NCBI GenBank assembly: GCA_035307765.1
Contig: DATGHU010000044.1
Coordinates: 124,001 to 188,000 of the forward strand
Origin: a bacterium
GTDB lineage: Bacteria; Sysuimicrobiota; Sysuimicrobiia; Sysuimicrobiales; Segetimicrobiaceae
DNA: 64,000 bases
Reading direction: 5' to 3'
In this document: in pieces, positions 6,281-54,886 of the stretch
How positions within the stretch are numbered: position 1 is the first letter of the stretch
Layout: the number at the start of each line of letters is the position of its first letter
Translations under genes and position numbers: made by a program
The notes under the pieces: generated by a model
Databases searched by the model: none
What the model saw: the letters and a program-made list of their open reading frames with translations, nothing else
What the model was told of the DNA's origin: nothing

Positions 6281-7270
6281 CTATGAATTGGCACGGACCT
6301 CGTGCAGCCGCCGCATCTCCTCCAGCAGTTCGCGATCGCGCGGGGAGAGTGGCTCGGGTAGCGAGAGGCGGACCTTGACCAGTTCGTCACCCGCCCCCGT
6401 TCCCCGCAGGTGAGGCAGCCCCCGCTCCCGGAGCCGGAACGTTCGAGCATCCCGGGTCCCCGGAGGGATCGTCACCGTCACGGGCCCGCCAAGTGTCGGC
6501 GCTTCGATGGTTCCACCGAGCGCCGCCGTCCATACCGGGACGGCCACCTCGCACAGCACGTCGTCGTCTTGGCGCGTGAAGGTCGGATGCTGGGCGATCT
6601 GCACCAAGAGATACAGATCACCGCCCTGCCCCTGACCTGCCACACGGATGCGCTGGCCGCTTCGCACGCCCTTGGGGATCGTGACCTCGATGCTGCGGTG
6701 CTCTCGCCCGCCGCCCGCGGGGATCGTGACGGTGCGCGCCGTGCCGCGGTAGGCGTCCTCCAAGGTGATCTCGACCGTGCCCTCCACGTCCTGGCCGCCG
6801 GTCTGCGGACCGGCCCCTCCCCCGCGGCGGCGGGCGAATTCCTCACCCCGGACCCCGCCCCGCCTCGAGCGCCCCTGGCCGCCGCGGCCAAGGTGCTCCG
6901 CGAGCCCCCCGCCCCCAAACTCCCCAAAGAGTTGCCGGAAAAAGTCGCTGAAGGACCCGAGGTCCTCAGGGGAGCCGTACACGGTATAGGTCCCGTCGCC
7001 CGACGATCCCCTTCCGCGGTGCAGCAGGTCTTCCCATCCGCCCCCCCGCTGCCGGAGGTCGAGGAGTTGATCGTACTTCGCCCGGCGCTCGGGATCATTC
7101 AGGACTTGATAGGCTTCGTTCACTTCTTTGAAGCGCGCCTCCGCCTGTTTGTCCCCCGGATTGACGTCCGGGTGGAGCCGGCGCGCCAGCTTTCGAAAGG
7201 CCTGACTGATCGCCTTTTGGTCGGCGGTGCGTTCGACCTCGAGGATGTTGTAGTAGTCCTTGAACTCCAT
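6281..7270 (-). CDS. DnaJ-type co-chaperone without zinc finger (CbpA-like)
   Basis: 329 residues from the ATG at 7270, where the family N-terminus [12 protein letters not shown] begins; the longer open frame upstream is grpE sequence read in another frame. The J domain has the HPD motif near residue 34 ([11 protein letters not shown]). A long Gly/Phe-rich and Arg-rich linker follows (~75-155), then the two beta-barrel C-terminal domains ([36 protein letters not shown]). No CxxCxGxG repeats are present, so it is type II/CbpA-like. It should stimulate DnaK ATP hydrolysis and deliver substrates. As the only J protein in the operon it probably serves as the main DnaJ here, though others may exist elsewhere. 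Confidence 0.94.
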
Positions 7271-7304
7271 CGCGTTCGTCTGCTCCGCCCGTCGTTCTCG
7301 GCCG

Positions 7305-7916
7305 CTACGGCGCGGGGCGCTCACTCCCGCCGACCACGGTGACCTTCGCCGGCCTGAGGATGTCGTCGTTGAGCAGGTAGCCTTTGAGGACCTCATTCGC
7401 CACCGTCCCGCTGGAGGGGCCGGAGGCCTGCGGCGGGACGACCCCCACCGCCTCGTGGAACTTCGGGTCGAACGGCCTGCCCACCGCCTCCATGGGGCGG
7501 ACGCCCACGGCCTCGAGCTGGCTCAGGATCTGACGATGGGTCATCCGCAGGCCATCGACCAGCGCCTTGCCGGATCCCCCCCCTACGTCGCCGAATGCCA
7601 GCGCCCGCTCGAGGTTGTCGAGCACCCCCAGCACCAAGCTGAGCATCTGCCGACGAGTCCGCTCCACCGCGTCCTGCCGGTCCCTCGCGGCCTGCTTCTT
7701 ATAGTTTTCCAGATCGGCGGCGGAGTGGAGGAAGTGCTGCCAGTTCCTCTGGGTATCCTCCCGCGCCTGCCGGAGCTTTGCCCTGAGTTCGTCGATCGTG
7801 AGGTCCTCCGGGCCGTCCGCGCTGAGCGCGCCGGAGTCCGCCGGTTGGCGGTGTTCCCCCGCCTCGCCCGCCGCTTCGTCCCCCTCTGGACGCTCGCCTC
7901 CGTGTTCCGTGCTCAT
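7305..7916 (-). CDS. grpE: Nucleotide exchange factor GrpE
   Basis: 203 residues. An acidic disordered N-terminus leads into the long dimerising helix (DELRAKLRQAREDTQRNW, AADLENYKKQ) and the C-terminal beta domain with the family motif GRPFDPKFHEAVGVV. It opens the DnaK nucleotide site to release ADP. ATG 7916 is preferred over GTG 7922 because GAGGT sits six bases before the ATG and would abut the GTG. It lies between dnaK and dnaJ with gaps of 47 and 34 nt. Confidence 0.96.
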   Translation of the reverse strand: MSTEHGGERPEGDEAAGEAGEHRQPADSGALSADGPEDLTIDELRAKLRQAREDTQRNWQHFLHSAADLENYKKQAARDRQDAVERTRRQMLSLVLGVLDNLERALAFGDVGGGSGKALVDGLRMTHRQILSQLEAVGVRPMEAVGRPFDPKFHEAVGVVPPQASGPSSGTVANEVLKGYLLNDDILRPAKVTVVGGSERPAP

Positions 7917-7963
7917 CTTCACACCTCGGTCTGCTCGCGCCTTGCTGTGTCCGTGGCGGACCG

Positions 7964-9877
7964 CTAGGCTTTGTCGGACGGTTTGAACTCGGCGTCGATG
8001 ACGTCCTCGCTCCCCTTGCTGCCGTCGGCGGACTCCGCCTTCGCCTCACCGGCGCCCGCCCCCGCGGTGGTGCGCTTATACATCTCCTCGCCGAGCTTGT
8101 AGCTGGCCTGTTGGAGGCCCTCGGTAGAGCGCTTGATCCGCTCGCCGTCGCCGGACTTCAGCGCTTCCTTGAGCTCGGCGAGCGAAGCTTCGACCTTTGC
8201 CCGATCCTCCGCGGAAACTTTGTCGCCGACCTCTTTGAGCATTCGCTCGGTCTGGTAGGCCAGGCTGTCCCCGCGGTTCTTGATCTCTGCGGCGTCGCGC
8301 TGCTTCTGATCTTCGGTCGCGTGCGCTTCCGCCTCCTTGACCAGTCGATCCACTTCCCCTTTGTCCAGCGTGCCCGTCCCGGTGATCTTGATCGACTGCT
8401 CGCGACTGGTGGCCTTGTCCTTGGCCGCGACGCTGAGGATCCCATTCGCGTCGATGTCGAACGTGACCTCGATCTGCGGCACGCCGCGGGGGGCGGGTGG
8501 GATGCCGTCGAGCAGAAACTTGCCCAGCGTGCGGTTGTCGCGAGCCATCGGCCGCTCCCCCTGCAGGACGTGGACGTCGACCGCCGTCTGTCCATCCTCC
8601 GCCGTGCTGAACGACTCCGCCTTGCGCGTGGGGATCGTCGTGTTCCGCGGAATGAGGATCGTGTTCACCCCACCAAGCGTCTCGATGCCCAGCGAGAGCG
8701 GCGTGACGTCGAGGAGCACGACCTCCCGCACCTCGCCGGCGAGGACGCCGGCCTGGATCGCCGCCCCCATGGCGACGACCTCGTCCGGGTGAACCTCCTT
8801 GTTGGGCTCCGTGCCGGTCAACCGGCGGACCAGTTCCTGGACACTCGGCATCCGCGTCGCGCCGCCGACCAGGATCACCTCGTTGAGGTCCCGCTCGGTC
8901 AGTTTCGCGTCGCCCAGCGCCTGCTTGAAGGGGCCGATGCAGCGCTCCACCAGGTCGGCCGTCAACTCATCGAACTTCGCCCGGCTCAGCACCATATCCA
9001 GGTGCTTGGGGCCGGTGGCGTCCGCCGTAATGAACGGGAGGTTGATCGAGGTTTGAACGACCGTGCTGAGCTCGATCTTCGCCCGCTCCGCTGCTTCACG
9101 CAACCGTTGGAGGGCCTGGCGGTCCGCTCGGAGATCGATCCCCTGCTGCTTCTTGAACTCGTCGGCCAGCCAGTTGACGATCCGCTCGTCGAAATCGTCC
9201 CCGCCGAGATGGGTGTCGCCGTTCGTGGCTTTGACCTCGTAGACGCCGTCCCCGATCTCGAGGATCGAGACGTCGAAGGTTCCGCCGCCGAGATCAAACA
9301 CGAGGATCGTTTTGGCGTGTTTCTGCTCCAGCGCGCGCCCGTAGGCGAGGGATGACGCCGTCGGCTCGTTGATGATCCGCAAAACCTTGAGGCCGGCGAT
9401 CTCCCCGGCGTTGCGGGTGGCGGTGCGCTGTGCATCGTTAAAGTAGGCAGGAACGGTGATCACCGCCTGCTCGACCTTTTCGCCGAGGTAGGCTTCCGCG
9501 TCGGTCTTGAGCTTTTGCAGGATCATCGCGGAGATCTCTTCGGGCGTGAACGTCTTTCCCGCCGCCGGGATGTGAACGACGGCCGTCCCGGTTTTCCCTT
9601 CCTCGACCTTGTACGGCACGATCTTCCGCTCGCTCTCCACCTCGCTGAAACGCCGTCCCATGAACCGCTTGATGGAGTAGACGGTGTTCTCCGGGTTGAG
9701 GATCGCCTGCCGGCGGGCCATCTGACCGACCAGTCGCTCCCCGGCTTTGGTGAAGCCAACCACAGACGGCGTGAGGCGGCTCCCTTCGGAGTTGGGGATC
9801 ACGGTCGGCTCGCCGCCGATCATCACCGCGATGACAGAGTTGGTCGTCCCTAGATCGATTCCCACAACCTTCGGCAT
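7964..9877 (-). CDS. dnaK: Hsp70 chaperone DnaK
   Basis: 637 residues, the normal length. The ATPase domain opens with [13 protein letters not shown], has [14 protein letters not shown] and [13 protein letters not shown], and ends at [14 protein letters not shown]. The substrate-binding domain follows ([17 protein letters not shown]), then a helical lid and a charged C-terminal tail ([13 protein letters not shown]) that resembles the conserved end of bacterial DnaK. It is the central ATP-driven foldase of the operon. The 85-nt gap to hsp20 contains a strong hairpin and no clear promoter, so transcription probably comes from the hspR promoter. Confidence 0.98.
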
Positions 9878-9922
9878 ACCCGTTCCTCCCGGCGGCGGCC
9901 TGGCGCCGCGTCACGGTGTCGG

Positions 9923-9952
9923 CCGGCGCCCGGGGATGAGCCCGAGCGCCGG
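9923..9952 (-). other. Strong stem-loop between hsp20 and dnaK
   Basis: Twelve-nt arms (9923-9934 and 9941-9952) pair at 11 of 12 positions around a 6-nt loop. No T-run follows on the minus strand, so it is unlikely to be an intrinsic terminator. A processing or mRNA-stability element separating hsp20 from dnaK is a reasonable inference. Confidence 0.5.
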
Positions 9953-9962
9953 CGCGCGGTTC

Positions 9963-10373
9963 CTAGCCGACCTGCACCTTCACCGACGTCGGTTTCACCC
10001 GCTCCGACTTGGGGATCTTCACCTCGAGCACTCCATCCCGGTAAGTCGCCTTGGCGTCGCCGCTGTTCACCTCGGTCAGGAGCGGCAGCGTGCGCATAAA
10101 CGTCCCGGTCCGTAGTTCGCGCCGAACGTAGTTGCGCCCCTTGTGCTCTTCCTCGGTCTTGGTTTGTCCTCTCAGCGTAACGGCGTCGTTCGTGACCGTG
10201 ATGTCGACCTGGGTGGGGTCGATGTTGGGGAGTTCCGCCCGGACGACGATCTCACCGTCGGTTTCAAACATTTCGACCGCCGGCTCCCACGCGGGCGTGC
10301 CGTCCCGGGGCAGTCCCCCACCGAAGGCATCGTCGAGCAAGCGATCCACCGATCGACTCAGGGGTCCACACAT
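9963..10373 (-). CDS. Small heat-shock protein Hsp20, N-terminus displaced by a frameshift
   Basis: An alpha-crystallin domain fills most of the 136 residues: WEPAVEMFETDGEIVVRAEL, VTNDAVTLRG and the C-terminal YRDGVLEVKIPKSE, close to the usual GVLTLTLPK-type ending. It is an ATP-independent holdase. The ATG at 10373 has no good ribosome-binding site and starts inside the normal N-terminal arm. The expected first residues (MNIVRWDPFQ) lie 31 nt upstream in another frame, after a strong site and overlapping the hspR stop. One extra base near 10374 separates the two. Either the gene is frameshifted or the assembly has an error. Confidence 0.9.
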   Translation of the reverse strand: MCGPLSRSVDRLLDDAFGGGLPRDGTPAWEPAVEMFETDGEIVVRAELPNIDPTQVDITVTNDAVTLRGQTKTEEEHKGRNYVRRELRTGTFMRTLPLLTEVNSGDAKATYRDGVLEVKIPKSERVKPTSVKVQVG

Positions 10374-10404
10374 CCTGGAAAGGATCCCACCGCACGATAT
10401 TCAT
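10374..10404 (-). other. Displaced 5' end of hsp20 (MNIVRWDPFQ, out of frame)
   Basis: ATG at 10404 overlaps the hspR stop as ATGA and is preceded by GGAGG eight bases upstream. It encodes MNIVRWDPFQ, the typical start of bacterial Hsp20 proteins. The frame then runs out of the family sequence, which continues in the frame shifted by one base. The distance to the downstream ATG is 31 nt; 30 would restore one continuous gene. Confidence 0.7.
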
Positions 10405-10766
10405 CGCCTCTTCCCTCCTTCTTGCTCTCCTCGATTAGTCTTGCCCGGCTTGCTCTCGTGTTCGCTCTCAGGCCACTCAAACAACTCCCCGTCGCTGTAG
10501 ACCCAGGTAAACTCCTCGTGATAATGCTCCTGGATCTCCAGGATCATCCGGACCCCGGCGAGGTTCAGTCCCTTCTCCTCGGTGAGGAAGCGGATCATCC
10601 GCACCCGGTGAATGTCCCGCGCCGAGTACAGGCGGATCCGCCGCCGCCGCGTCGGCGACAGCAGCCCCCGCTCCTCATAGATCCGCAGCGTTCGCGGGTG
10701 GCATCCGATTAACTCGGCCGCCACGCTGATCACGTAGACCGGGGTGTCCGGCTCGAGCTTCTTCAC
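10401..10766 (-). CDS. hspR: MerR-family heat-shock repressor, HspR-like
   Basis: 121 residues. The N-terminal winged helix of MerR type (YVISVAAELIGCHPRTLRIYEERGLLSP) is followed by a second helix pair with RRIRLYSARDIHRVRMIRFL and a dimerisation helix (GLNLAGVRMILEIQ). HspR represses chaperone operons and is thought to be co-repressed by DnaK. Here it is the first gene of the operon it would control, unlike the actinobacterial order where hspR is last. The charged C-terminal tail is unconserved. The stop overlaps the hsp20 start signal. Confidence 0.88.
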   Translation of the reverse strand: MKKLEPDTPVYVISVAAELIGCHPRTLRIYEERGLLSPTRRRRIRLYSARDIHRVRMIRFLTEEKGLNLAGVRMILEIQEHYHEEFTWVYSDGELFEWPESEHESKPGKTNRGEQEGGKRR

Positions 10767-40613: not shown

Positions 40614-41495
40614 TCACCGCGCCGCTTCCTGCTTCAGCGACAGCCATAGCCGGTACACCCGATTCCGACGCAGCCCCGTCGCCTGGGCCGCTCGTCGCAC
40701 CGCCTCAAATGGTGCGATCCCATCCTTCAACGCGTCGCGCAGGATCGATCGCGCCGACTCCTCCGCCTCGGGAGCGGCGGCATCGGCGATGACGCGGTCG
40801 ACCGGCGTGAGATCCGCCCCGGCGAGCACGAGGGTGAACTCTCCTTGGGGCCGGTGCTCGGTGAAATGCCGAATCGCGTCGCCGATCGTGCCGCGAAAGA
40901 GCTCTTCGTGGATCTTGGTCAACTCGCGGGCCACCGCGATTTTCCGGTCACCCCACGCCGCGGCGAGCGCCTGCAGCGTCTTCATCAAGCGGTGGGGAGC
41001 TTCGTAGATCACCAGGGTGTGCGCCACCGAGCGGAAGGCGTCGAGCACTCGCTGGCGCTCGGACGCGGCCGGCGGAAGGAAGCCGAGAAACGTCACCGGC
41101 TCGGTGGGAAGCCCCGAGGCGACCAGTGCCGTGACGAAGGCGCTGGGGCCCGGCAGCACGATGACGGGCACCCCGTCCTCGACGGCGTGCTGCACCAGGT
41201 CGACGCCGGGGTCGCTCAGCCCGGGGGTCCCGGCGTCGGAGACGAGGGCGATCGACTCGCCCGCGAGCAGCCGGGCGATCAGCTCCGGCGCGCGCGCGCG
41301 CTCGTTGTGCTCGTGGACGCTCACCACTCGGGCGGGGATCCCGTGATGCGTCAGGAGCTTGCGGGTCCGCCGGGTGTCCTCGGCGGCGATCAGGGCCACT
41401 TCCCGGAGGATGCGCAGCGCGCGCAGTGTGATGTCCTCCAGGTTGCCGATCGGGGTGGCCACGAGGTAGAGCGTTCCGACTTTGGTCGCTGTCAC
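40614..41495 (-). CDS. rsmI: 16S rRNA (cytidine(1402)-2'-O)-methyltransferase
   Basis: 293 residues of the tetrapyrrole-methylase fold: LYLVATPIGNLEDITLRALR, VALIAAEDTRRTRKLLTHHG, LVSDAGTPGLSDPG and YEAPHRLMKTLQAL. It modifies C1402 in the ribosomal decoding centre. It begins the aspartate-family gene run, divergent from the trehalose riboswitch. Confidence 0.95.
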   Translation of the reverse strand: MTATKVGTLYLVATPIGNLEDITLRALRILREVALIAAEDTRRTRKLLTHHGIPARVVSVHEHNERARAPELIARLLAGESIALVSDAGTPGLSDPGVDLVQHAVEDGVPVIVLPGPSAFVTALVASGLPTEPVTFLGFLPPAASERQRVLDAFRSVAHTLVIYEAPHRLMKTLQALAAAWGDRKIAVARELTKIHEELFRGTIGDAIRHFTEHRPQGEFTLVLAGADLTPVDRVIADAAAPEAEESARSILRDALKDGIAPFEAVRRAAQATGLRRNRVYRLWLSLKQEAAR

Positions 41496-41598
41496 ACCCC
41501 CACTATACCAGAGTGCCCCGCGGCGCGGGGCGCTCCGCCGGGTCCGCGGCGCGACGACGTCTCGAGACGTTTGAAGTGGACTTCCCCGGGGGAACCAC

Positions 41599-41604
41599 TA
41601 TAAT
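41599..41604 (+). promoter_or_regulatory. Probable -10 box for the trehalose cluster
   Basis: TATAAT at 41599-41604 lies about 35 nt upstream of the riboswitch. The -35 is weak (TGGACT, 16 nt upstream). The rest of the rsmI-otsA gap is accounted for by the riboswitch and its terminator. Confidence 0.55.
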
Positions 41605-41636
41605 GGAAACCGGACGACCATCAAACAGGCCTGTGT

Positions 41637-41770
41637 GGTTGTGCCGAGTCCCTGCCGCGGGCAGGGAGCGGGGGATCCGGATGGTGGGGCGCAGCTCGCG
41701 CGCGGCGCGAGTAGGGGAGTCTCTCTCGACCCGAGCCCGACAGCTAACCCCGTAGGCGGCGAGGGAGGGT
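41637..41770 (+). promoter_or_regulatory. c-di-AMP riboswitch (ydaO/yuaA type)
   Basis: All conserved blocks of the ydaO aptamer are present in order: GCCGAGTCC (41643-41651), GGGGGATCC (41670-41678), TGGGGCGCAGC (41685-41695), a GC-rich variable stem, GTAGGGGAG (41711-41719), then CCCGAGCCCGACAGCTAACC (41730-41749) with CGTAGGC (41751-41757) and GGGAGGG. The order and wording match the B. subtilis ydaO aptamer closely (GCCGAAUCC, GAGGAACC, UGGGGUUAAUC, GUAGGG, CCCGACAGCUAAC, GGAGGC). Binding two c-di-AMP molecules would stabilise it. A terminator follows within 20 nt, so it is probably an OFF switch for the trehalose genes. Confidence 0.93.
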
Positions 41771-41787
41771 GGCCGGGACAACGAGCA

Positions 41788-41824
41788 CGCCCGGAGGCCC
41801 CGTCTCCGGGCGATTTGTATTTCT
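41788..41824 (+). terminator. Riboswitch expression-platform terminator
   Basis: CGCCCGGAG (41788-41796) and CTCCGGGCG (41804-41812) form a perfect 9-bp stem with loop GCCCCGT, followed by ATTTGTATTTCT. It stands between the aptamer and the otsAB start. Confidence 0.87.
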
Positions 41825-41869
41825 CCCTCGCGCGATCACTCAGGACGACTCCGGGGGGGGTGATGATCG

Positions 41870-44182
41870 GTGCATGGGCATGGTGGGCTTCCGAATCGCC
41901 TGCGCGGGGTCCTGGCCGACCGCCCGTTGATCGTCGTCAGCAACCGGGAGCCGTACACGCACCGCCGCAGCGGGGGCGCGGCGAAGGTCGAGCGCCCGGT
42001 GGGCGGGCTCACCGCGGCTCTCGATCCGGTGATGCAGGATCTCTCCGGGACTTGGATCGCCTGGGGGGATGGGGACGCGGACTTCGACGACGTCGCCGCG
42101 GGGGGGAGGGTTCCGGTTCCCCCCGAGGCCCCTCGCTACACGCTGAAGCGCATCGCCCTGCCGCATCCCGAGGTCGAGGGATACTACTACGGGTATGCGA
42201 ACCAAGCCCTGTGGCCGCTCTGCCACATGGCCATGAGCCAGGCTCGGTTTCGGGCCCGCTATTGGGCGGCGTATCAGAGCGTGAACGCCCGGTTCGCCGC
42301 GGCGGTTCGGGAGGAGGCCGGCCGGGAGGCCCTCGTGTGGATCCACGATTACCACCTGGCGCTCTGTCCCCGTGAGCTCCGCCGCACCCGCCCCGATCTG
42401 TTCCTCATGCATTTCTGGCACATCCCCTGGCCCGCCTGGGACGTTTTTCGGATCTGCCCACAGGGCGCCGAACTGCTCGACGGGCTGCTGGCCAACGACT
42501 TGATCGGCTTTCAGCATCCCCGCCATGTGGAGCACTTCCTGGAGTGCGCGGAGCGCGAGATCGGCGCTCGGGTCGAAGACGGCATCGTCGAGTACAAGGG
42601 CCGGGTGACCCACGTCGAGGCCTTCCCGATCAGCGTGGATGCCGCGGCCTTGGACCAGCTGGCGAGGTCCCGGTCGTGTGAGCGGTGGATGGCTCGGTTG
42701 CGCCGGCGGTTCGCGCTCGAGGGGCGGACCGTGGCGGTGAGCGTCGACCGCCTCGACTACACGAAGGGGATCCCCGAGCGGCTCAAGGCGATCGACCTGT
42801 TCTTCAAGCGGCGGCCGGAGTACCGGACCCGGGTGGTCTTCATTCAGAAGACGGCTCCCAGCCGGACCCGGATCAAGGCGTACCGGGACCTTGAGAGCCA
42901 AGTCGAGGAGGCGATCGCGCACCTGAACGCGGCGTATGCGGTGGAGGGGTGGCAGCCGGTGATCTCCCTGCCGCAGCCCCTGCCGCCCGCGGGGATGGCC
43001 GCCCTCTATCGGATGGCGGATCTCTGCGTCGTTAGTTCCCTGCAGGATGGGATGAATCTCGTCGCCAAGGAATTTGTCGCCTGCCAGGTCGACCGCCGCG
43101 GCGTGCTCGCGCTCAGCGAGCTGGCGGGCGCCCGCGACGAGCTGTCGTGGGCGATCCCCATCAACCCGTATGACGTGGAGGGCTGCGCGGACGCGCTGGC
43201 GCGGGCGATTGAGATGCCGGTCCTGGAGCGGCGGCGGCGGCTGGACCGCCTCCGGACCGACGTTGCCGAACACGACATCACCCACTGGGTGGACCAGCAC
43301 CTCGAGGCGGCCGCCCACCTGCTCGGGGCCCGATCCGCGACCCGGCAGCTGTTCGACGCCGCCGGCCGGATCGATCCCACCGTGGGGAGGGGGCGCCCGC
43401 TGGCCCTGCTCATGGACTTCGACGGTACCCTGACCGGGTTTGCCGATGATCCCGACTCCGTGCGGATCCCGCCGCGGATCCAGGCGGCGCTCGCCCGAAT
43501 TGCCCGTGCCCCGGACACGTTCGTCGCCATCATCAGCGGACGCGCGCTCGACGACATCCGGCTCCGCGCCGGCATCGACGGGATCGTCTACGGGGGGAAT
43601 CACGGGCTGGAGATCGCCGGGCCGGGATGGACCTGGACGGTGCCCAAGGCCGAGGAGGCACGCGGGGCAATCGGGCCGTGCTGTGTGCGCCTGCGCGCCC
43701 GCCTGCGCGGAGTGCCCGGTGTCTGGGTCGAAGACAAAGGCCTGACCGCCAGCGTTCATTACCGGCGAAGTCCCCACCGTCATGTGGAGCAGGTCCGGAT
43801 GGCCGTGCTCGAAGAGCTGGCCCAGCTTTCCCCGCGGACGCTCGGGGTTCGGCAGGGGAAGCACGTGCTCGAACTGCGGCCGGACATCTCCTGGGACAAG
43901 GGCGCCGCGGTGCGGTGGGTGCTCACCCGAGCGCTCGGGGACGACTGGGCGGCAACCGCGTCGGTGGTGTACCTCGGGGACGACCGGACCGACGAGGACG
44001 CCTTCGAAGCCCTGGCCGCCCCCGCCGTGACGGTGAAGGTCGGGCCGAACGCCCACCCGACCGCGGCGCGCTACGCCGTGCGGAACATCGACGAGGTGTA
44101 CCGGTTCATCGAGACGATCGACGCCAGGCGGGCCGCGTTGTCGGTCCCGGCCGGGGCGGCCGCGGGCGGCGCGGGTGGGTAA
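41870..44182 (+). CDS. Bifunctional trehalose-6-phosphate synthase/phosphatase (OtsA-OtsB fusion)
   Basis: 770 residues. The N-terminal ~470 are a GT20 synthase: RPLIVVSNREPYTHRRSGGA, VWIHDYHLALCP, FWHIPWPAWDVFRICPQG, SVDRLDYTKGIPERLKAIDL and SSLQDGMNLVAKEFVAC. The C-terminal ~270 are a HAD phosphatase with DFDGTLTGF, IISGRALDDI and GDDRTDEDAFEAL. It makes trehalose-6-phosphate from UDP/ADP-glucose and glucose-6-phosphate and dephosphorylates it. GTG 41870 is the only start upstream of the family sequence. Such fusions are common in plants and known in a few bacteria. Confidence 0.95.
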   Translation: MHGHGGLPNRLRGVLADRPLIVVSNREPYTHRRSGGAAKVERPVGGLTAALDPVMQDLSGTWIAWGDGDADFDDVAAGGRVPVPPEAPRYTLKRIALPHPEVEGYYYGYANQALWPLCHMAMSQARFRARYWAAYQSVNARFAAAVREEAGREALVWIHDYHLALCPRELRRTRPDLFLMHFWHIPWPAWDVFRICPQGAELLDGLLANDLIGFQHPRHVEHFLECAEREIGARVEDGIVEYKGRVTHVEAFPISVDAAALDQLARSRSCERWMARLRRRFALEGRTVAVSVDRLDYTKGIPERLKAIDLFFKRRPEYRTRVVFIQKTAPSRTRIKAYRDLESQVEEAIAHLNAAYAVEGWQPVISLPQPLPPAGMAALYRMADLCVVSSLQDGMNLVAKEFVACQVDRRGVLALSELAGARDELSWAIPINPYDVEGCADALARAIEMPVLERRRRLDRLRTDVAEHDITHWVDQHLEAAAHLLGARSATRQLFDAAGRIDPTVGRGRPLALLMDFDGTLTGFADDPDSVRIPPRIQAALARIARAPDTFVAIISGRALDDIRLRAGIDGIVYGGNHGLEIAGPGWTWTVPKAEEARGAIGPCCVRLRARLRGVPGVWVEDKGLTASVHYRRSPHRHVEQVRMAVLEELAQLSPRTLGVRQGKHVLELRPDISWDKGAAVRWVLTRALGDDWAATASVVYLGDDRTDEDAFEALAAPAVTVKVGPNAHPTAARYAVRNIDEVYRFIETIDARRAALSVPAGAAAGGAGG

Positions 44183-44855
44183 GCGCGCCGCGAACGCGGC
44201 CTTCCGATTTACGTCCTGCCACGGGCTCCAACAGATGCTCGGCCGGGTGGCGCGGGACGAACTGGAGCTCCTCCAACACCTGGACGAGGTCCCGATCGAG
44301 AGCATCCACCATCACACCCACGCGTACTTTCTGCGCCACCATTATCTGGCCGGGGCGTACCCCAACGACTTTGCGACGTGGGCGGCGATCCAGGTCCGCG
44401 ACCGCGTGCTGGGAGAGCGGCTCGCGATCGTGGACCCGTTCGACTTCCAGGATCTCGAGGCGCTTCGCTCCACGCTCATCACGATCGTCGACGACCACCT
44501 CACGCACACCCCGGTGGTGCCGCGGGTGGTGTACGGGGAGCCGTTCTACTTCATGATCACGACGCTCGCCGAATTCCCTACGGGGCTCGAGGCGCGTACG
44601 CTGCGGGAGTTCCGCGACGGCCTGGCTCGGGCCGAGGTGTCCGTCGTCTACTTCCATCTGTTTGAGGCCCCCCGCCGCCGCCTGCCGACGTTCGGGGCCT
44701 GGCTGGAGATGCAGGGAGAGGCGGGACTGGCGGAAGAGGTCCGGCGGCTCCATCCCTACACATCGGATCTCGAGGGATTGCGCGCCCGCCTGCTCACGCT
44801 CTGCGACGCTGCCCTGGCGGGCCGGCTCGAGGTGAAAGGTCCCCATGGCGACTGA
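44175..44855 (+). CDS. DUF5752-like protein of the trehalose cluster
   Basis: 226 residues, GTG 44175 overlapping the otsAB stop by 8 nt. The start (FRFTSCHGLQQMLGRVARDE) and the core HHHTHAYFLRHHYLAGAYPN with DFATWAAIQVRDRVLGERLA match an uncharacterised family, DUF5752, that I recall next to TreT-type trehalose synthases. Its His-rich segment could hold a metal. It lies between two trehalose enzymes with overlaps on both sides, which points to a role in the same pathway or its control. Confidence 0.7.
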   Translation: MGKRAANAAFRFTSCHGLQQMLGRVARDELELLQHLDEVPIESIHHHTHAYFLRHHYLAGAYPNDFATWAAIQVRDRVLGERLAIVDPFDFQDLEALRSTLITIVDDHLTHTPVVPRVVYGEPFYFMITTLAEFPTGLEARTLREFRDGLARAEVSVVYFHLFEAPRRRLPTFGAWLEMQGEAGLAEEVRRLHPYTSDLEGLRARLLTLCDAALAGRLEVKGPHGD

Positions 44856-46056
44856 CGGGAACTCCCTCGACCGGTACCGGGACGTCGCTCCCCCGGGCTC
44901 GGTCGACGCGCTGTACCGGTTCGGCGAGCGGGTGCGGGGCAAGCAATTCGTGCACGTCAATTCGACCCGATACGGCGGCGGGGTGGCCGAGATGCTCCAC
45001 CGCCTCCTCCCGCTCCTGAACCAGCTGGGGGTGGAGACCCGGTGGGAAGTCCTCCAGGGCGACGAGGAGTTCTTCCGCATCACGAAGAGCTTCCACAACG
45101 CCTTCCAGGGGGACGAGCAGGCGATCTCCGCGGAGATGCTCGAGCACTACCTGGAGGCGAACCGGCGAAACGCTGCGCGGCTTGACCTGGACGGCGATCT
45201 CATCCTGATCCACGATCCTCAGCCGGCGGCGCTGATCGAACGCCGGGGGCGGGGCGCGTGGGTGTGGCGGTGCCACATCGACGCCTCGCACCCGCAGCGG
45301 CGCGTCTGGGCCTTCTTTCGCCCCCTCATCTCCCGGTACGACGCCGCGGTGTTCTCGCTGCCCCGGTTCGCCCAGCGCCTAGGGATCCCGCAGTATCTGA
45401 TCTACCCGAGCATCGATCCGCTCAGCGACAAGAATCGAGACCTCCCCGCGGAAGAGGTCCAGGCCGTGCTGGCCCGGTTGGGGATCCCCCAGGACAAGCC
45501 GATCCTGCTCCAGGTGTCCCGGTTCGACCGGTTCAAAGACCCGGTGGGGGTCGTTCAGGCCTACCGGTTGGTGAAGAAGCACGACGACTGCCGACTGGTG
45601 TTGGCGGGCGGTGGTGCGGTCGACGATCCCGAAGGCCCCAAGGTTCTCGCGGAGGTCCAAGCGACGGCGGCCGGCGATCCGGATGTCCACGTCCTCGTCC
45701 TGCCGGATAACGCCAACGTCGAGATCAACGCGCTCCAGCGCGCCGCCACGATTGTGCTCCAAAAGTCCACTCGCGAGGGGTTCGGGCTGACCGTCGCGGA
45801 GGCGATGTGGAAGGGGAAGCCGGTGATCGGCGGATTTGCCGGGGGGATCACCGTGCAGATCGTCTTCGGGACGACGGGATACACGGTGAACTCTCCGGAG
45901 GGTGCCGCGTTCCGGGTGCGCTACCTGCTGAACAATCCGCAGGTGGCCATGCGGATGGGAGAGAACGCGCGCGAGTACGTCCGGCGAAACTTCCTGATCA
46001 CCCGCCACCTCGCCGATCTTCTGGCGCTCCTGGCGCTGCGCACCCGGGCGGCGTGA
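44845..46056 (+). CDS. treT: Trehalose synthase TreT (GT4 glycosyltransferase)
   Basis: 403 residues. The TreT signature is clear: KQFVHVNSTRYGGGVAEMLH at the start, LDLDGDLILIHDPQPAALIE, RCHIDASHPQRRVWAFFRPL, then PILLQVSRFDRFKDPVGVVQ and TREGFGLTVAEAMWKGKPVI at the nucleotide-sugar site. It makes trehalose in one step from ADP- or UDP-glucose and glucose. It overlaps the DUF5752-like gene by 11 nt. Confidence 0.95.
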   Translation: MATDGNSLDRYRDVAPPGSVDALYRFGERVRGKQFVHVNSTRYGGGVAEMLHRLLPLLNQLGVETRWEVLQGDEEFFRITKSFHNAFQGDEQAISAEMLEHYLEANRRNAARLDLDGDLILIHDPQPAALIERRGRGAWVWRCHIDASHPQRRVWAFFRPLISRYDAAVFSLPRFAQRLGIPQYLIYPSIDPLSDKNRDLPAEEVQAVLARLGIPQDKPILLQVSRFDRFKDPVGVVQAYRLVKKHDDCRLVLAGGGAVDDPEGPKVLAEVQATAAGDPDVHVLVLPDNANVEINALQRAATIVLQKSTREGFGLTVAEAMWKGKPVIGGFAGGITVQIVFGTTGYTVNSPEGAAFRVRYLLNNPQVAMRMGENAREYVRRNFLITRHLADLLALLALRTRAA

Positions 46057-46065
46057 GGCCCGCCG

Positions 46066-46902
46066 CTAGCGCCGCGGGCGATCCTGCCGCGCCGCGGGCT
46101 TGCGCGCCCGAATGAACGCGCTCATCACCCGGCCGTCGATGCGCGGTGCATGGGCTTCGACATCAACCCCGCAGCCGGAAAGGAATTCGCGCGCGTCGTC
46201 CACGCGGTAGACGCGGGTGGGCTCCACGCCAATCGCCTCAAACCCCGCCCGCCCCAGCTTTTCGGCGTACTCGCGCACCTCCAGCGCCCCCGCGACGCAG
46301 CCCACCCACAGTTCCATGCTGCGCCGGAGGTCGTCCGGCATCTCCCCCTGGATCACGACGTCCGACACGGCGAGGCGCCCGCCGGGCCTGAGGACGCGGA
46401 AAGCTTCGGCAAAGACCCGGTCCTTCTCGCCGGAGAGATTGATCACGCAGTTCGAGATGATGACATCGACCGAGTCATCGGGCAGGGGGATGCGCTCGAT
46501 CTCGCCCATCAGGAATTCGGCGTTGCGAACTCCCGCCCGGTGCTGATTGGCCCGCGCCAGGGCCAGCATTTCCTCGGTTATGTCAAGCCCGTAGGCCTTT
46601 CCGGTGGGCCCGACGCGTTTGGCGGAGAGGAGGACGTCAATCCCACCCCCCGATCCCAAATCGAGCACCGTTTCTCCCGGGTGCAGGTGGGCCAGCGCCG
46701 TGGGGTTCCCGCATCCCAGGGAGGCCCGAAGGGCTTCCGGCGGCACCTCGGCGACCTGTTCCTGATCATACAGGTTCGCCGTCACGGGATCGCCGGCGCC
46801 GGAGGGCCCGCAGCAGGCGCTCGCGCAGCACCCGCCCCCACCGCCGGCGACGCGGATCGCCGCCCGCGCGTATTTGTCCCGGATCGCGTCCTTGAGCTCC
46901 AT
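46066..46902 (-). CDS. arsM: Arsenite methyltransferase ArsM
   Basis: 278 residues. The SAM-binding fold has [19 protein letters not shown] and [20 protein letters not shown], a typical ArsM block. Cysteines for arsenite are at [11 protein letters not shown] near the start, SNCVINLS and GCVAGAL. The N-terminal [13 protein letters not shown] insertion is known in this family. It methylates As(III), making volatile or less harmful forms. It follows arsR by 30 nt on the same transcript. Confidence 0.94.
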
Positions 46903-51219: not shown

Positions 51220-53361
51220 CTACCGCGGCGCGACCGCGATCGTGCACCGGGTCGCGTGCGCCGTATCGCCGCCCGGCGGCAGCTCGACCGATCGACAGAT
51301 CAGCAGCACGGCGCCCTGAAAGTTCCGCTCGTACCCGCCCTCGGAGTTTGAGATCGTGAACAGCGGAAGCGTCCAGATCGCCGCGGGCCCGCCGAGGTCG
51401 AAGCCGAGCCTCAGCCCCGACCACGCCTCTTCCACCGTCACCCGCGCGGTCGGTGGGAGCGTGCCGAGGTCGTGCAGGGAGGACCGCACCCCGGCCGCCT
51501 CGACCCACACGTCGTCCGGCCCCCCGAACACCCCGATCCCCCATTCCTCAATCGCCACCGCGCGCAGGGGGGCCGGGCCCTCCCACCGCAGCCGCGTGGT
51601 GTGGAGCAGCCCGTGCAGGCCCGGCTGCGCCTCGACCGTGCGGTCCACCACGACCCGTCCCCCGGCCGTGCCCCCCTCCCGGTGCAGGCGGACGGAGGCG
51701 CGCGCGTCCGTGAGGTCGAGGTCCCAGGTGTAGGCCCCATCGGCGAGGTCTGCCAGGTCATCCTCCTCACCGCGCCAGCACTGCTCCGGCGTGGTCCCTT
51801 CCGGGACCAGGCGCATCCGCAGGCTCGGGCGGCGGGTGCGATCGTAGATCAGGAATCGTTCCAGGCCCGGCTCCTTGACCCGCACCGCCGCGGTGTGAAT
51901 CGTTTCGGGTTCCCCCGTCACCGCCTGCGCGGCGCCGGTTTCGACCGCGCGGAGGAGGTCCGCGTGGTAGCGCTCGCGGCGGCGGGTGAGTACGTTCCCA
52001 AGATGGCGGGGTGCGGGCCGGTAGTCCCACTCCACCACGCTCCCGCCGCGCCCCGGATCGACGGTCAGCACCAGCACGTCGGTCGCCAGCCGCACTTCGG
52101 TCCGGCCGTCCCCGTTCAGGTCGGCGGCATCGCCGATCGCATGCGCCCCGGGATGTCGGGCCGCCTCCGCCGCAGCTTCGGCGGCGACGAGATGACTGAA
52201 GGCGGCGCCGCGGATGTGCGGGAGGTAGACCCCCCCGAAGACCCCGTGCCAGTACGGGCAGTTGCACTCCCCCGCCCAGAGGTCCTCGAGCGCCCGGGCC
52301 CGGGCGTCGCCGGGCGGCATCGCGGCGACCTTTTCCCCGGCTCGGAGCGCGAGGTGGTGCAGCGTATTGACCTCCGCGTATTTCACGAGGAAGTGCCGCC
52401 AGAACCCCCCGCGGATGAACGGGAGCACCTCCGCCCACGGGCTGCCTTCGAGCTGGCGCTTGAGGTGCGACAGACGCTCGGCTCGATCCGCGGGCAGCGC
52501 CCACTCCGCCATCTCATCGTAGGTGGCGGCGGGAAGGTAGATCCGCCCCGCGGGCTCGCGCGACCGACGGTACTCGCCGGGAGGGACGACCTCGATCCAC
52601 GGCGTCGCCTCGAGCGCCGCGAAGAACCGGTCGATCCAGCCGTGCTCCCAACAGTGCGCGTAGGTCCCCGGCCAGAGGCCGAATTTCTCGCCGTCGTCCC
52701 CCATCACCGCGAGATCGAGCGCGGCCGAGCGGCCGTCGGTGCGGACATCACTGTCGGCAAGCGTTCGGAGGTAGGCGATGACGTCTTCGACCGGCGCCCA
52801 CGGGACGAGGTATCGAAGGCGCTTCAAGCTCGGGAAGATGGCGAGCGGGACGCCGGCCTCTTCGGTCATGTAGTACCCCAGCAACTGGGGCTCGTCGAGG
52901 CCGACGGCGTGAAAATGTGTGTCGTCCACGATCGTGTACCGGACCCCCGCCTCGCCGAGCGGCCGGGCCAGGTGCGGTTCCCACACCCGCTCGGCCAGCC
53001 AGAGGCCATCGGCCGCGGTCCCAAACTCCGCGGCGATCTCGCGCGTGAGCTTCTCAATTTGGCCGCGCTTGTCCGCGTCCGGAATGATGGCGAGGATCGG
53101 TTCGTAGTACCCGCCCGTCATGACCTCCACCTGCCCGCGCCCCGCCAGCCCGTGAATCCGGTCGAGGAGCTCTGGGCGGTGCGGCCGCAGCCAGTCGAGG
53201 AGGGGGCCGGAGTAGTGGAGGGCCAGGCGGATCGTGGGGTGACGTTCGAGCGCCGCGATCATCGGCGCGTACGCGCGGTCCGCGGCGTCGGCGAAGACGT
53301 AATCGAAGTTGCCGACCGGCTGGTGGTTGTGGATCGCGAGCGACAGAACGACCGGATGCAT
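51220..53361 (-). CDS. GH57 4-alpha-glucanotransferase/alpha-amylase
   Basis: 713 residues from ATG 53361. The GH57 start LSLAIHNHQPVGNFDYVFAD, nucleophile Glu in LWLAERVWEPHLARPLG and acid Asp in MGDDGEKFGLWPG are all present; the C-terminal half is the beta-rich DUF1925/1926 region of this enzyme group. It acts on maltodextrin or glycogen-like chains, usually in the cytoplasm (no signal peptide seen). It ends 21 nt before DUF1275 and starts 7 nt after the exporter. Confidence 0.93.
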   Translation of the reverse strand: MHPVVLSLAIHNHQPVGNFDYVFADAADRAYAPMIAALERHPTIRLALHYSGPLLDWLRPHRPELLDRIHGLAGRGQVEVMTGGYYEPILAIIPDADKRGQIEKLTREIAAEFGTAADGLWLAERVWEPHLARPLGEAGVRYTIVDDTHFHAVGLDEPQLLGYYMTEEAGVPLAIFPSLKRLRYLVPWAPVEDVIAYLRTLADSDVRTDGRSAALDLAVMGDDGEKFGLWPGTYAHCWEHGWIDRFFAALEATPWIEVVPPGEYRRSREPAGRIYLPAATYDEMAEWALPADRAERLSHLKRQLEGSPWAEVLPFIRGGFWRHFLVKYAEVNTLHHLALRAGEKVAAMPPGDARARALEDLWAGECNCPYWHGVFGGVYLPHIRGAAFSHLVAAEAAAEAARHPGAHAIGDAADLNGDGRTEVRLATDVLVLTVDPGRGGSVVEWDYRPAPRHLGNVLTRRRERYHADLLRAVETGAAQAVTGEPETIHTAAVRVKEPGLERFLIYDRTRRPSLRMRLVPEGTTPEQCWRGEEDDLADLADGAYTWDLDLTDARASVRLHREGGTAGGRVVVDRTVEAQPGLHGLLHTTRLRWEGPAPLRAVAIEEWGIGVFGGPDDVWVEAAGVRSSLHDLGTLPPTARVTVEEAWSGLRLGFDLGGPAAIWTLPLFTISNSEGGYERNFQGAVLLICRSVELPPGGDTAHATRCTIAVAPR

Positions 53362-53368
53362 GACGCGG

Positions 53369-54886
53369 TCAGTCCGCCTCTCCGCCTCCGCCTGCACCGG
53401 CGGGACTGAGTGCGAGCACGCTCCCCGCCGGCATGTACACGACCACCAGCAGGAGGCCGGCCGCGACCAGCCCCAGCCCGACGAGGAAGATGCTGTGGAT
53501 CCCCTGCGCCAGCGCCTGGCGGAACGACTCGTGGCCCCCGGCGGTGAGATGCGCCTGGACGCTGGCGTCGAGGGCCACCTGCGGGTCCGTGATCCGCGGG
53601 ATCCCCAGCCCCGCCGTGCCGGCGAGGGCCTCGGCGCGCCGCGTCAGCACGCCGATCAGAACCGCGCCTTGCGCGCTGATTCCGATCGCGCTCCCGATGT
53701 TGCGGGAGAAGATGCTGACCGAGGTGGCGATCCCGCGCAACTCGCGCGCCACCGCGTTCTGCATGGAGATCATGAACATCGTCGCCGTGAGCCCCATGCC
53801 GACGCCGAGGACGACCATCGGGACGAAGACCCGCTGGACCGAGGTCTCGGCGGTGAGGCGGGCGAGGAGCGTAAACCCGGTGACCATGAGGGTCATGCCG
53901 ATCACCATCACCGGCCGGTACCCCCACCGCAACGCCACCCGGCTTCCGGCGATGCTGCCGCAGGTCCAGCAGAGCATGAACGGGATCAGCACCGCGCCGG
54001 CGGTCGTGGCGCTTGTCTGGATCACGCCCTGAACGAACAGCGGGATGTACACCACCGCGCTGAACATACTCGCGCCGAGCAGAAATCCGCCGACCGACCC
54101 CACGGCGACGACGCGATCGTCGAACAGCGTTAGTGGAAGGAACGGATGCCGCGCCCGCCGTTCGATCCGGACGAAGAGCAGCGCGAGCGCCGCGCAGACC
54201 GCCGCCAGCCCCACCGCCGGGGGCGACCACCACGAAAAGGCCTGCCCCCCCCAGAGCAGGAGCAGCAGGAGCGCGACCGCGGCGCCGGTGAGGATGCCGA
54301 TGCCGGGGTAATCGATGCCGCCCTCCCGCCGCGTCACCGGGTCGACGAACGAGATCGTGATGATCATCGTGGCGACGAGGCCGGCGGGCACGTTGAGGAA
54401 GAAGATCCACCGCCAGCTGGCGTGGTCGGTCAGGAAGCCGCCGAGGAGCGGGCCGACGACCGCCGCGAACCCCCAGACGCCGCTGAAGATCCCCTGAATC
54501 CGGAGGCGCTGCTCCACCGGGAACAAGTCGGCGACGATCGTGAGCGCAATCGGCAGCACCGCCCCACCGCCGATTCCCTGGAGCAGCCGGAACACGACCA
54601 GTTGTCCCATGGTGTGGGACAGCCCGCAGAGGACCGACGCCCCGATGAACCACAGGATGCCGGTGAGGTAAATTCGCTTCCGGCCGTAGAGGTCGGCGAG
54701 CCGGCCGAAGATCGGGGTGGTGGTAACGAACGCCAGCTGGTACGCGGCGAAGACCCAGGAGTACAGCGCGAGGCCGCCGAGGGCTCGCGTGATGGTCGGC
54801 ATCGCCGTGCCCACCGCGGTCTGGTCGATGGCGGCGAGGAACATCCCCAGCATCGCCGCGACGGTGACGACGCTCCGCCGGTTCAC
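53369..54886 (-). CDS. MFS exporter, DHA2 (EmrB/QacA) family
   Basis: 505 residues from GTG 54886, overlapping the glcE stop as GTGA. Fourteen membrane helices with the DHA2 motifs LAAIDQTAVGTAMPTITRAL, GRLADLYGRKRIY and GGFLTDHASWRWIFFLNVPA. It expels drugs or metabolites by proton exchange. Translational coupling to glycolate oxidase suggests it may move a 2-hydroxyacid or its product, but that is only inferred. Confidence 0.93.
   Translation of the reverse strand: MNRRSVVTVAAMLGMFLAAIDQTAVGTAMPTITRALGGLALYSWVFAAYQLAFVTTTPIFGRLADLYGRKRIYLTGILWFIGASVLCGLSHTMGQLVVFRLLQGIGGGAVLPIALTIVADLFPVEQRLRIQGIFSGVWGFAAVVGPLLGGFLTDHASWRWIFFLNVPAGLVATMIITISFVDPVTRREGGIDYPGIGILTGAAVALLLLLLWGGQAFSWWSPPAVGLAAVCAALALLFVRIERRARHPFLPLTLFDDRVVAVGSVGGFLLGASMFSAVVYIPLFVQGVIQTSATTAGAVLIPFMLCWTCGSIAGSRVALRWGYRPVMVIGMTLMVTGFTLLARLTAETSVQRVFVPMVVLGVGMGLTATMFMISMQNAVARELRGIATSVSIFSRNIGSAIGISAQGAVLIGVLTRRAEALAGTAGLGIPRITDPQVALDASVQAHLTAGGHESFRQALAQGIHSIFLVGLGLVAAGLLLVVVYMPAGSVLALSPAGAGGGGEAD

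Follow-up and report, generated by a model that had tools for sequence, protein, structure and literature searches.

The gene at positions 44175-44855 (+ strand) of the 64,000-nt window of contig DATGHU010000044.1 (assembly GCA_035307765.1) analysed here encodes a 226-residue protein of the DUF5752 family, and is the bacterial form of OrfY. The window belongs to a bacterium of the phylum Sysuimicrobiota, hereafter the home phylum; G and L numbers are our handles for genomes and loci, and coordinates are those of the window unless an L number precedes them. Across the genomes surveyed this gene is coupled to treT, which encodes the trehalose glycosyltransferring synthase TreT, rather than to the otsAB gene in front of it in the window. 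With moderate confidence, we take the protein to serve one TreT branch as a dedicated subunit with a regulatory or docking role.

The Pfam family PF19027 (DUF5752) covers residues 8-210 of the protein (183.3 bits against a cut-off of 23; E-value = 4.7e-54; profile positions 2-207 of 208). The sole solved relative found is PDB entry 4CSO, which was matched by a 13-sequence profile over almost its whole chain (E-value = 1.4e-18), and which was deposited as 'OrfY protein, transcription factor' under the title 'The structure of OrfY from Thermoproteus tenax'. A first structure model, made with 13 sequences (predicted local distance difference test score, pLDDT, 75.9), matched 4CSO alone. A second model, made with 74 sequences (pLDDT 92.5; predicted template modelling score 0.84), matched the same entry with Z 19.2 and a root-mean-square deviation of 3.0 over 206 of 216 aligned residues, the next row standing at Z 4.6. 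Rows below Z 5 were discarded, and Foldseek gave no confident match to the model besides 4CSO; weak rows at Z 2-3 include the regulators QacR (3br2) and RHA1_ro04179 (2np5), at scores that are not meaningful. An earlier sequence-only reading had named DUF5752 as a family of unfamiliar function and had proposed a fold search. The family name is confirmed, a solved member proved to exist, and no clear match to an unrelated enzyme emerged by sequence or by fold.

Outside the bacterial genomes, a pattern search of IMG/VR returned nine matches with zero true relatives among them, and a search of the plasmid collection for DUF5752 relatives gave no match. Weak PF19027 matches in three genomes (G023, G025 and G029; about 21-24 bits) were rejected as chance, scoring only about 9-11 bits with our own profile; by eye, we take these proteins to resemble 2-hydroxyacyl-CoA dehydratase subunits.

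Association with one branch of TreT

The survey comprised 241 genomes, namely 43 of the home phylum and 198 of the Nitrospirota, the latter chosen through G043, the genome that holds the Nitrospira locus L068. DUF5752 and TreT exist together in 74 of these genomes and TreT alone in 12, and no genome has a full-length DUF5752 without TreT. In the home phylum, 14 genomes have both (in one of them, G015, DUF5752 is interrupted by a contig end), none has DUF5752 only, three have TreT only and 26 have neither. In the Nitrospirota, with 13 partial DUF5752 matches set aside, the corresponding numbers are 60, 0 (full-length), 9 and 129 (Fisher p = 1.6e-41 for the co-occurrence, a value that is not corrected for kinship). 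Both families are also present in Sulfolobus acidocaldarius, one of the named controls, for which a treT deletion strain has been made (PMC7688234). In the window's own family the pair was recognized in only one of 12 genomes, and the other 11 lack both genes; the pair in the window therefore appears to be a transferred cassette.

The order of the two genes is as constant as their co-occurrence. In the Nitrospirota, a same-strand TreT follows 63 of the 64 full-length DUF5752 genes (47 adjacent, 16 one gene apart), and the 64th gene stops 25 nt short of a contig end. The gap in the 16 spaced pairs is about 1.8-2.3 kb, and a match to the TreS reference was found inside it in all four loci read. 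Among 43 distinct loci (39 from the scan of genome_contigs, three from the home phylum and that of the window), 42 can be evaluated, and in 41 of them the known gene that comes next is TreT; L039 is a real exception, and L048 is left out because its locus sequence ends too early. The median distance from the DUF5752 stop to the TreT start is -4 nt, and 33 of the 40 measurable pairs overlap or touch, of which three (L032, L037 and L058) are unreliable, having no near stop; two pairs have no reachable start codon. By contrast with this constant downstream partner, the gene upstream of DUF5752 changes between loci, and may be OtsAB, OtsB, OtsA, GH57-DUF3536 with GlgC, TreY, TreS-Mak or glucokinase. 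The sequence-only reading had linked the protein tightly to two trehalose enzymes. The trehalose association is borne out by these neighbourhoods, as are the translational coupling and TreT as a partner, but OtsAB is only one of the genes that can fill the upstream position.

In a maximum-likelihood tree of 77 distinct TreT sequences, the 67 that are linked to DUF5752 and the 10 that are unlinked are split by a single branch (support 100/99). Alignments shorter than 330 residues, sequences with internal stops and identical rows were left out, and four of the 16 Nitrospirota TreTs without DUF5752 are in the tree. Three rows labelled 'edge' were relabelled 'none' from whole-contig data, and two more, both from G047, kept the label 'edge' and contribute to the 10 unlinked ones. 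The tree is unrooted, and no order of the linked and unlinked states is claimed. TreTs of the linked side are 49.7-100% identical to that of the window and those of the unlinked side 42.7-47.8%, and eight positions distinguish the two branches. Scores against the equivalog NF041139 were tried as a marker of reversible versus unidirectional TreT and failed, both branches scoring alike.

Internal repeats and fusions of DUF5752

The window protein is internally duplicated, and each half has one invariant histidine. Its halves (residues 7-115 and about 120-219) are homologous over 104 columns (hhalign probability 99.7; E-value = 1.9e-25), while 20 column shuffles reach at most 1.9, and the secondary structure predicted by the 74-sequence model repeats twice, as a long strand followed by helices. 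His47 and His161 occupy equivalent positions, and neither is missing from any of the 86 distinct domains. Conservation in this set reaches 95% or more for further residues paired across the repeats (Phe10/12 with Phe124/126, Trp69 with Trp176, Arg98 with Arg203) and for Glu81. The sequence-only reading had pointed to a His-rich core. Such a stretch, HHHTHAYFLRHHYL, is literally present, but the family as a whole does not share it: among its six histidines, invariance is limited to His47, and the others are not conserved throughout. Position 46, for instance, is Tyr in 43 domains, His in 23, Phe in 19 and Cys in one. A His-cluster metal protein was thus rejected, the invariance in HHHTHAYFLRHH being confined to His47.

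Among the 85 distinct domains beside that of the window, four are fused to a maltokinase-like protein (Mak) and five to an MscS-like mechanosensitive channel part. DUF5752 is C-terminal in all nine, and TreT comes next in every one of these loci. The Mak fusions, which carry Mak_N_cap (L053:2538-4808, L055:8228-10642, L056:2925-5174 and L060, frame 7166-10645), lie between TreS and TreT, an arrangement that suggests trehalose flow to glycogen. Three of the five MscS fusions were scanned with Pfam; the MscS beta-domain is present and the C-terminal MscS domain PF21082, which was seen in a neighbouring channel, is undetected, with DUF5752 in its place. MscS-beta-DUF5752 frames stand directly before TreT at L184:6475-7848, L185:5984-7357 and L198:5097-6491 (- strand), with OtsA and OtsB nearby, and the L184 fusion also adjoins a complete MscS-type channel. 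No one-chain DUF5752-TreT fusion and no C-terminal extension longer than 60 residues exists in the 85 domains. A 440-aa frame of G179 is an unrelated open frame.

Weak partial DUF5752 matches in long frames were found in ten Nitrospirota genomes. All six frames read (L199-L204, from ten candidates) end at the C-terminus in a single repeat with its histidine, which matches the two DUF5752 halves with probabilities of 97.5 and 97.8 (shuffles, at most 3.5). Three of these proteins, from Nitrospira, were scanned with Pfam and consist of a HAD-IIB-type phosphatase and a HerA/DUF87-like ATPase part (NCBIfam on two). These single-repeat tails give independent support for the duplication. Pfam treats PF19027 as one domain of 208 residues, whereas here it resolves into two repeats, with a single-repeat form on Nitrospira HAD/HerA-type proteins.

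The window operon and c-di-AMP riboswitches

The following features, all on the + strand, make up the locus in the window.

41577-41604 (+): promoter-like site TGGACT-16-TATAAT (consensus scan, 10 of 12 matches)
41632-41772 (+): cyclic di-AMP (c-di-AMP; ydaO/yuaA) riboswitch aptamer RF00379 (62.9 bits against a gathering score of 38; model positions 1-134 of 134)
41788-41812 (+): terminator-like hairpin between the aptamer and the otsAB start (11-pair stem, then a T-rich tail; chance expectation 0.4)
41870-44182 (+): fused otsAB (TPS-TPP; PF00982 at 20-480, PF02358 at 514-737; NF011071 654 bits over a cut-off of 634)
44175-44855 (+): DUF5752/OrfY-family gene, 226 aa, GTG start (PF19027 183 bits; 4CSO by profile and fold)
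44193-44519 (+): N-terminal repeat of DUF5752, residues 7-115, with invariant His47 (half-versus-half hhalign)
44532-44831 (+): C-terminal repeat of DUF5752, residues about 120-219, with invariant His161 (half-versus-half hhalign; mirrored secondary structure in the model)
44845-46056 (+): treT for the 403-aa trehalose glycosyltransferring synthase, on the DUF5752-linked side of the tree (PF21269 192 bits; tree placement)

The DUF5752 gene shares its first 8 nt (GTGGGTAA) with the end of otsAB and its last 11 nt with the start of treT, exactly as the sequence-only reading had placed them. Because the + strand scan of 44050-46500 gave no promoter-like or terminator-like site, the three genes appear to be transcribed together. 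Ahead of them, two promoter-like sites fall in 41400-41960, against 0.1 in shuffles, and the hairpin at 41788-41812 is probably the expression platform of the riboswitch, although its evidence is suggestive only. The otsAB product scores 425 bits with Glyco_transf_20 and 140 bits with Trehalose_PPase. TreT consists of the N-terminal domain PF21269 (192 bits) and the GT4 domain PF00534 (87 bits); a Thermococcales-type identity was rejected for it, its NF041139 score of 394 against the 775 required placing it outside that subgroup. The window genome has one diadenylate cyclase gene. A GH57 glucanotransferase-like gene lies near the operon (51220-53397, - strand), and such a gene is likewise found near DUF5752-TreT in L040, L042 and L043.

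The home phylum contains 20 c-di-AMP riboswitches, in 17 of its 43 genomes. Twelve are directly before OtsA, and two more are separated from OtsA by a BrkB/YihY-family gene; one further riboswitch precedes a BrkB/YihY-type gene at a contig end, and two are before a TreT of the unlinked branch. The remaining three are elsewhere, one of them (L148) before an open reading frame with an AMPK1-type glycogen-binding domain. Based on these placements, siting ahead of trehalose synthesis genes is the rule for the c-di-AMP riboswitches of the home phylum. The c-di-AMP switch that the sequence-only reading had put over the trehalose genes is thus real, but in the home phylum such switches serve mainly otsAB, and only the window's stands before a DUF5752-TreT pair (1/20). 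The aptamer family and the osmotic logic are those of the ydaO/yuaA riboswitch operons, unlike which 14 of the 20 home-phylum riboswitches lead to OtsA and two to TreT.

Proposed role of DUF5752

The constant association with one TreT branch, the co-translation and the attachment of the same module to both a kinase and a channel together argue for a regulatory or docking subunit of TreT. The overlapping start and stop codons would keep DUF5752 made in step with TreT, which it may bind directly, so as to tune or localise trehalose synthesis; the contact, the direction of the effect and any ligand are our suppositions. Attached to a maltokinase, DUF5752 would place TreT, or the control of TreT, beside the enzyme draining trehalose or maltose, and attached to a mechanosensitive channel, beside the valve that releases osmolytes. 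In the window, the leader RNA would sense c-di-AMP and switch otsAB, DUF5752 and treT together.

Several points weigh against this reading. TreTs of the unlinked branch and the TreT of Thermotoga maritima occur without DUF5752. Conversely, an intact orphan DUF5752 gene (L039:4127-4864, in G047) lies behind TreY, the 1.3 kb after it holding neither a TreT nor a relic of one, and the two TreTs of G047 are both of the unlinked branch. Strict adjacency can equally be preserved by operon transfer, a fusion is evidence of functional linkage and not of contact with TreT, and the depositors of 4CSO label OrfY a transcription factor. Finally, Kouril and colleagues (2008) reportedly found T. tenax TreT to be active without OrfY, so that OrfY would not be needed for catalysis.

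A more specific proposal, in our view unlikely, is that DUF5752 senses trehalose, the product. The repeats, with their invariant His and conserved Trp, Phe and Arg, would form a pseudo-twofold pocket for alpha,alpha-trehalose, itself a twofold-symmetric molecule and hence an appealing ligand for a twofold arrangement. Bound trehalose would then act on three targets, namely TreT (feedback), the maltokinase of the Mak fusions (glycogen drain) and the MscS-type channel of the channel fusions (release), and the single-repeat ancestor would survive on HAD/HerA-type proteins. If this is true, DUF5752 would be a portable osmolyte-sensing module that reads the trehalose level and sets synthesis, use and efflux.

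The sequence-only reading had offered a regulator, a chaperone or an unknown step of trehalose or glucan metabolism. The regulator, or partner, reading has fared best of these, and the other two now rank as rivals. An enzyme of trehalose or glucan metabolism, to which we give likewise little credence, could use the invariant or nearly invariant residues (His47 and His161 in 86/86; Trp69, Glu81, Arg98, Trp176 and Arg203 at 95% or above). However, most of these form equivalent pairs across the repeats, a pattern of binding or structural modules, and neither Pfam nor Foldseek found a relationship to an enzyme. In the fusions, moreover, the domain is joined to a channel or to a kinase that is itself complete, without replacing a step, and OtsAB and TreT already give complete trehalose routes. 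Translation directly before TreT through overlapping codons and the strict clade specificity would also suit a folding or stability chaperone dedicated to the linked TreT branch. This we regard as rather improbable: T. tenax TreT is said to be made and active without OrfY, and a chaperone leaves the MscS and maltokinase fusions unexplained.

That DUF5752 regulates transcription of the trehalose operon, as the label given to 4CSO by its depositors would have it, seems to us doubtful. The Pfam scan of the window protein found no DNA-binding domain, all 86 DUF5752 domains are acidic (median isoelectric point 5.25, maximum 6.6), and the confident Foldseek match is to 4CSO alone. Fusions to a membrane channel and a sugar kinase fit such a role poorly, co-translation with TreT exceeds what a regulator needs, and the window operon is already under an RNA switch. 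That the gene has an unrelated housekeeping role and merely rides with TreT by descent in a transferred cassette, as the patchy occurrence of the pair (1/12 genomes of the window's family) might suggest, is very improbable, since the upstream neighbours turn over freely while DUF5752-TreT persists and none of the 241 genomes has a full-length DUF5752 without TreT, with one orphan position (L039).

The window protein is a member of a known family in a new setting. It shares with T. tenax OrfY (4CSO) its family, its fold and a His and a Trp in both aligned halves, but it is only about 25% identical, is bacterial, and is preceded by a c-di-AMP riboswitch and a fused otsAB gene; the fusions carried by its relatives we have not seen reported for OrfY. 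The OrfY-TreT pairing itself is not new: Kouril and colleagues (2008) reportedly placed orfY upstream of the unidirectional treT in T. tenax, and are said to have found the gene cluster conserved in many Archaea and a few Bacteria. The window gene, directly upstream of treT with its 11-nt overlap, resembles this reported arrangement.

In another T. tenax system, TPSP needs a co-expressed glycosyltransferase, through complex formation, and its operon includes a mechanosensitive channel (PMC3634074); the word OrfY is absent from that paper. This complex is a precedent for complexes of trehalose enzymes. The two systems agree in outline, with a trehalose synthase, a co-expressed partner and a mechanosensitive channel (PMC3634074), but the partner there is a GT4 glycosyltransferase, whereas here it is DUF5752, to which the channel can be fused.

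Our literature search found no mention of 'DUF5752', no use of OrfY in this sense together with T. tenax or trehalose (by titles and counts), no phrase 'trehalose regulatory protein' among the papers listed, and no joint occurrence of c-di-AMP, riboswitch and 'trehalose synthesis'. To the extent of the literature searched, neither the fusions and single-repeat form of DUF5752, nor its restriction to one TreT branch, nor a c-di-AMP/trehalose regulon appears to have been reported.

Trehalose is a major stress protectant, and we know of no control of TreT, none having been found in the literature consulted. A protein tied to one TreT branch, with fusions to an osmotic channel and a sugar kinase, offers a handle on how the synthesis, use and release of a compatible solute are joined, and the phylum-wide c-di-AMP riboswitches before otsAB make trehalose synthesis a further process that this second messenger probably governs.

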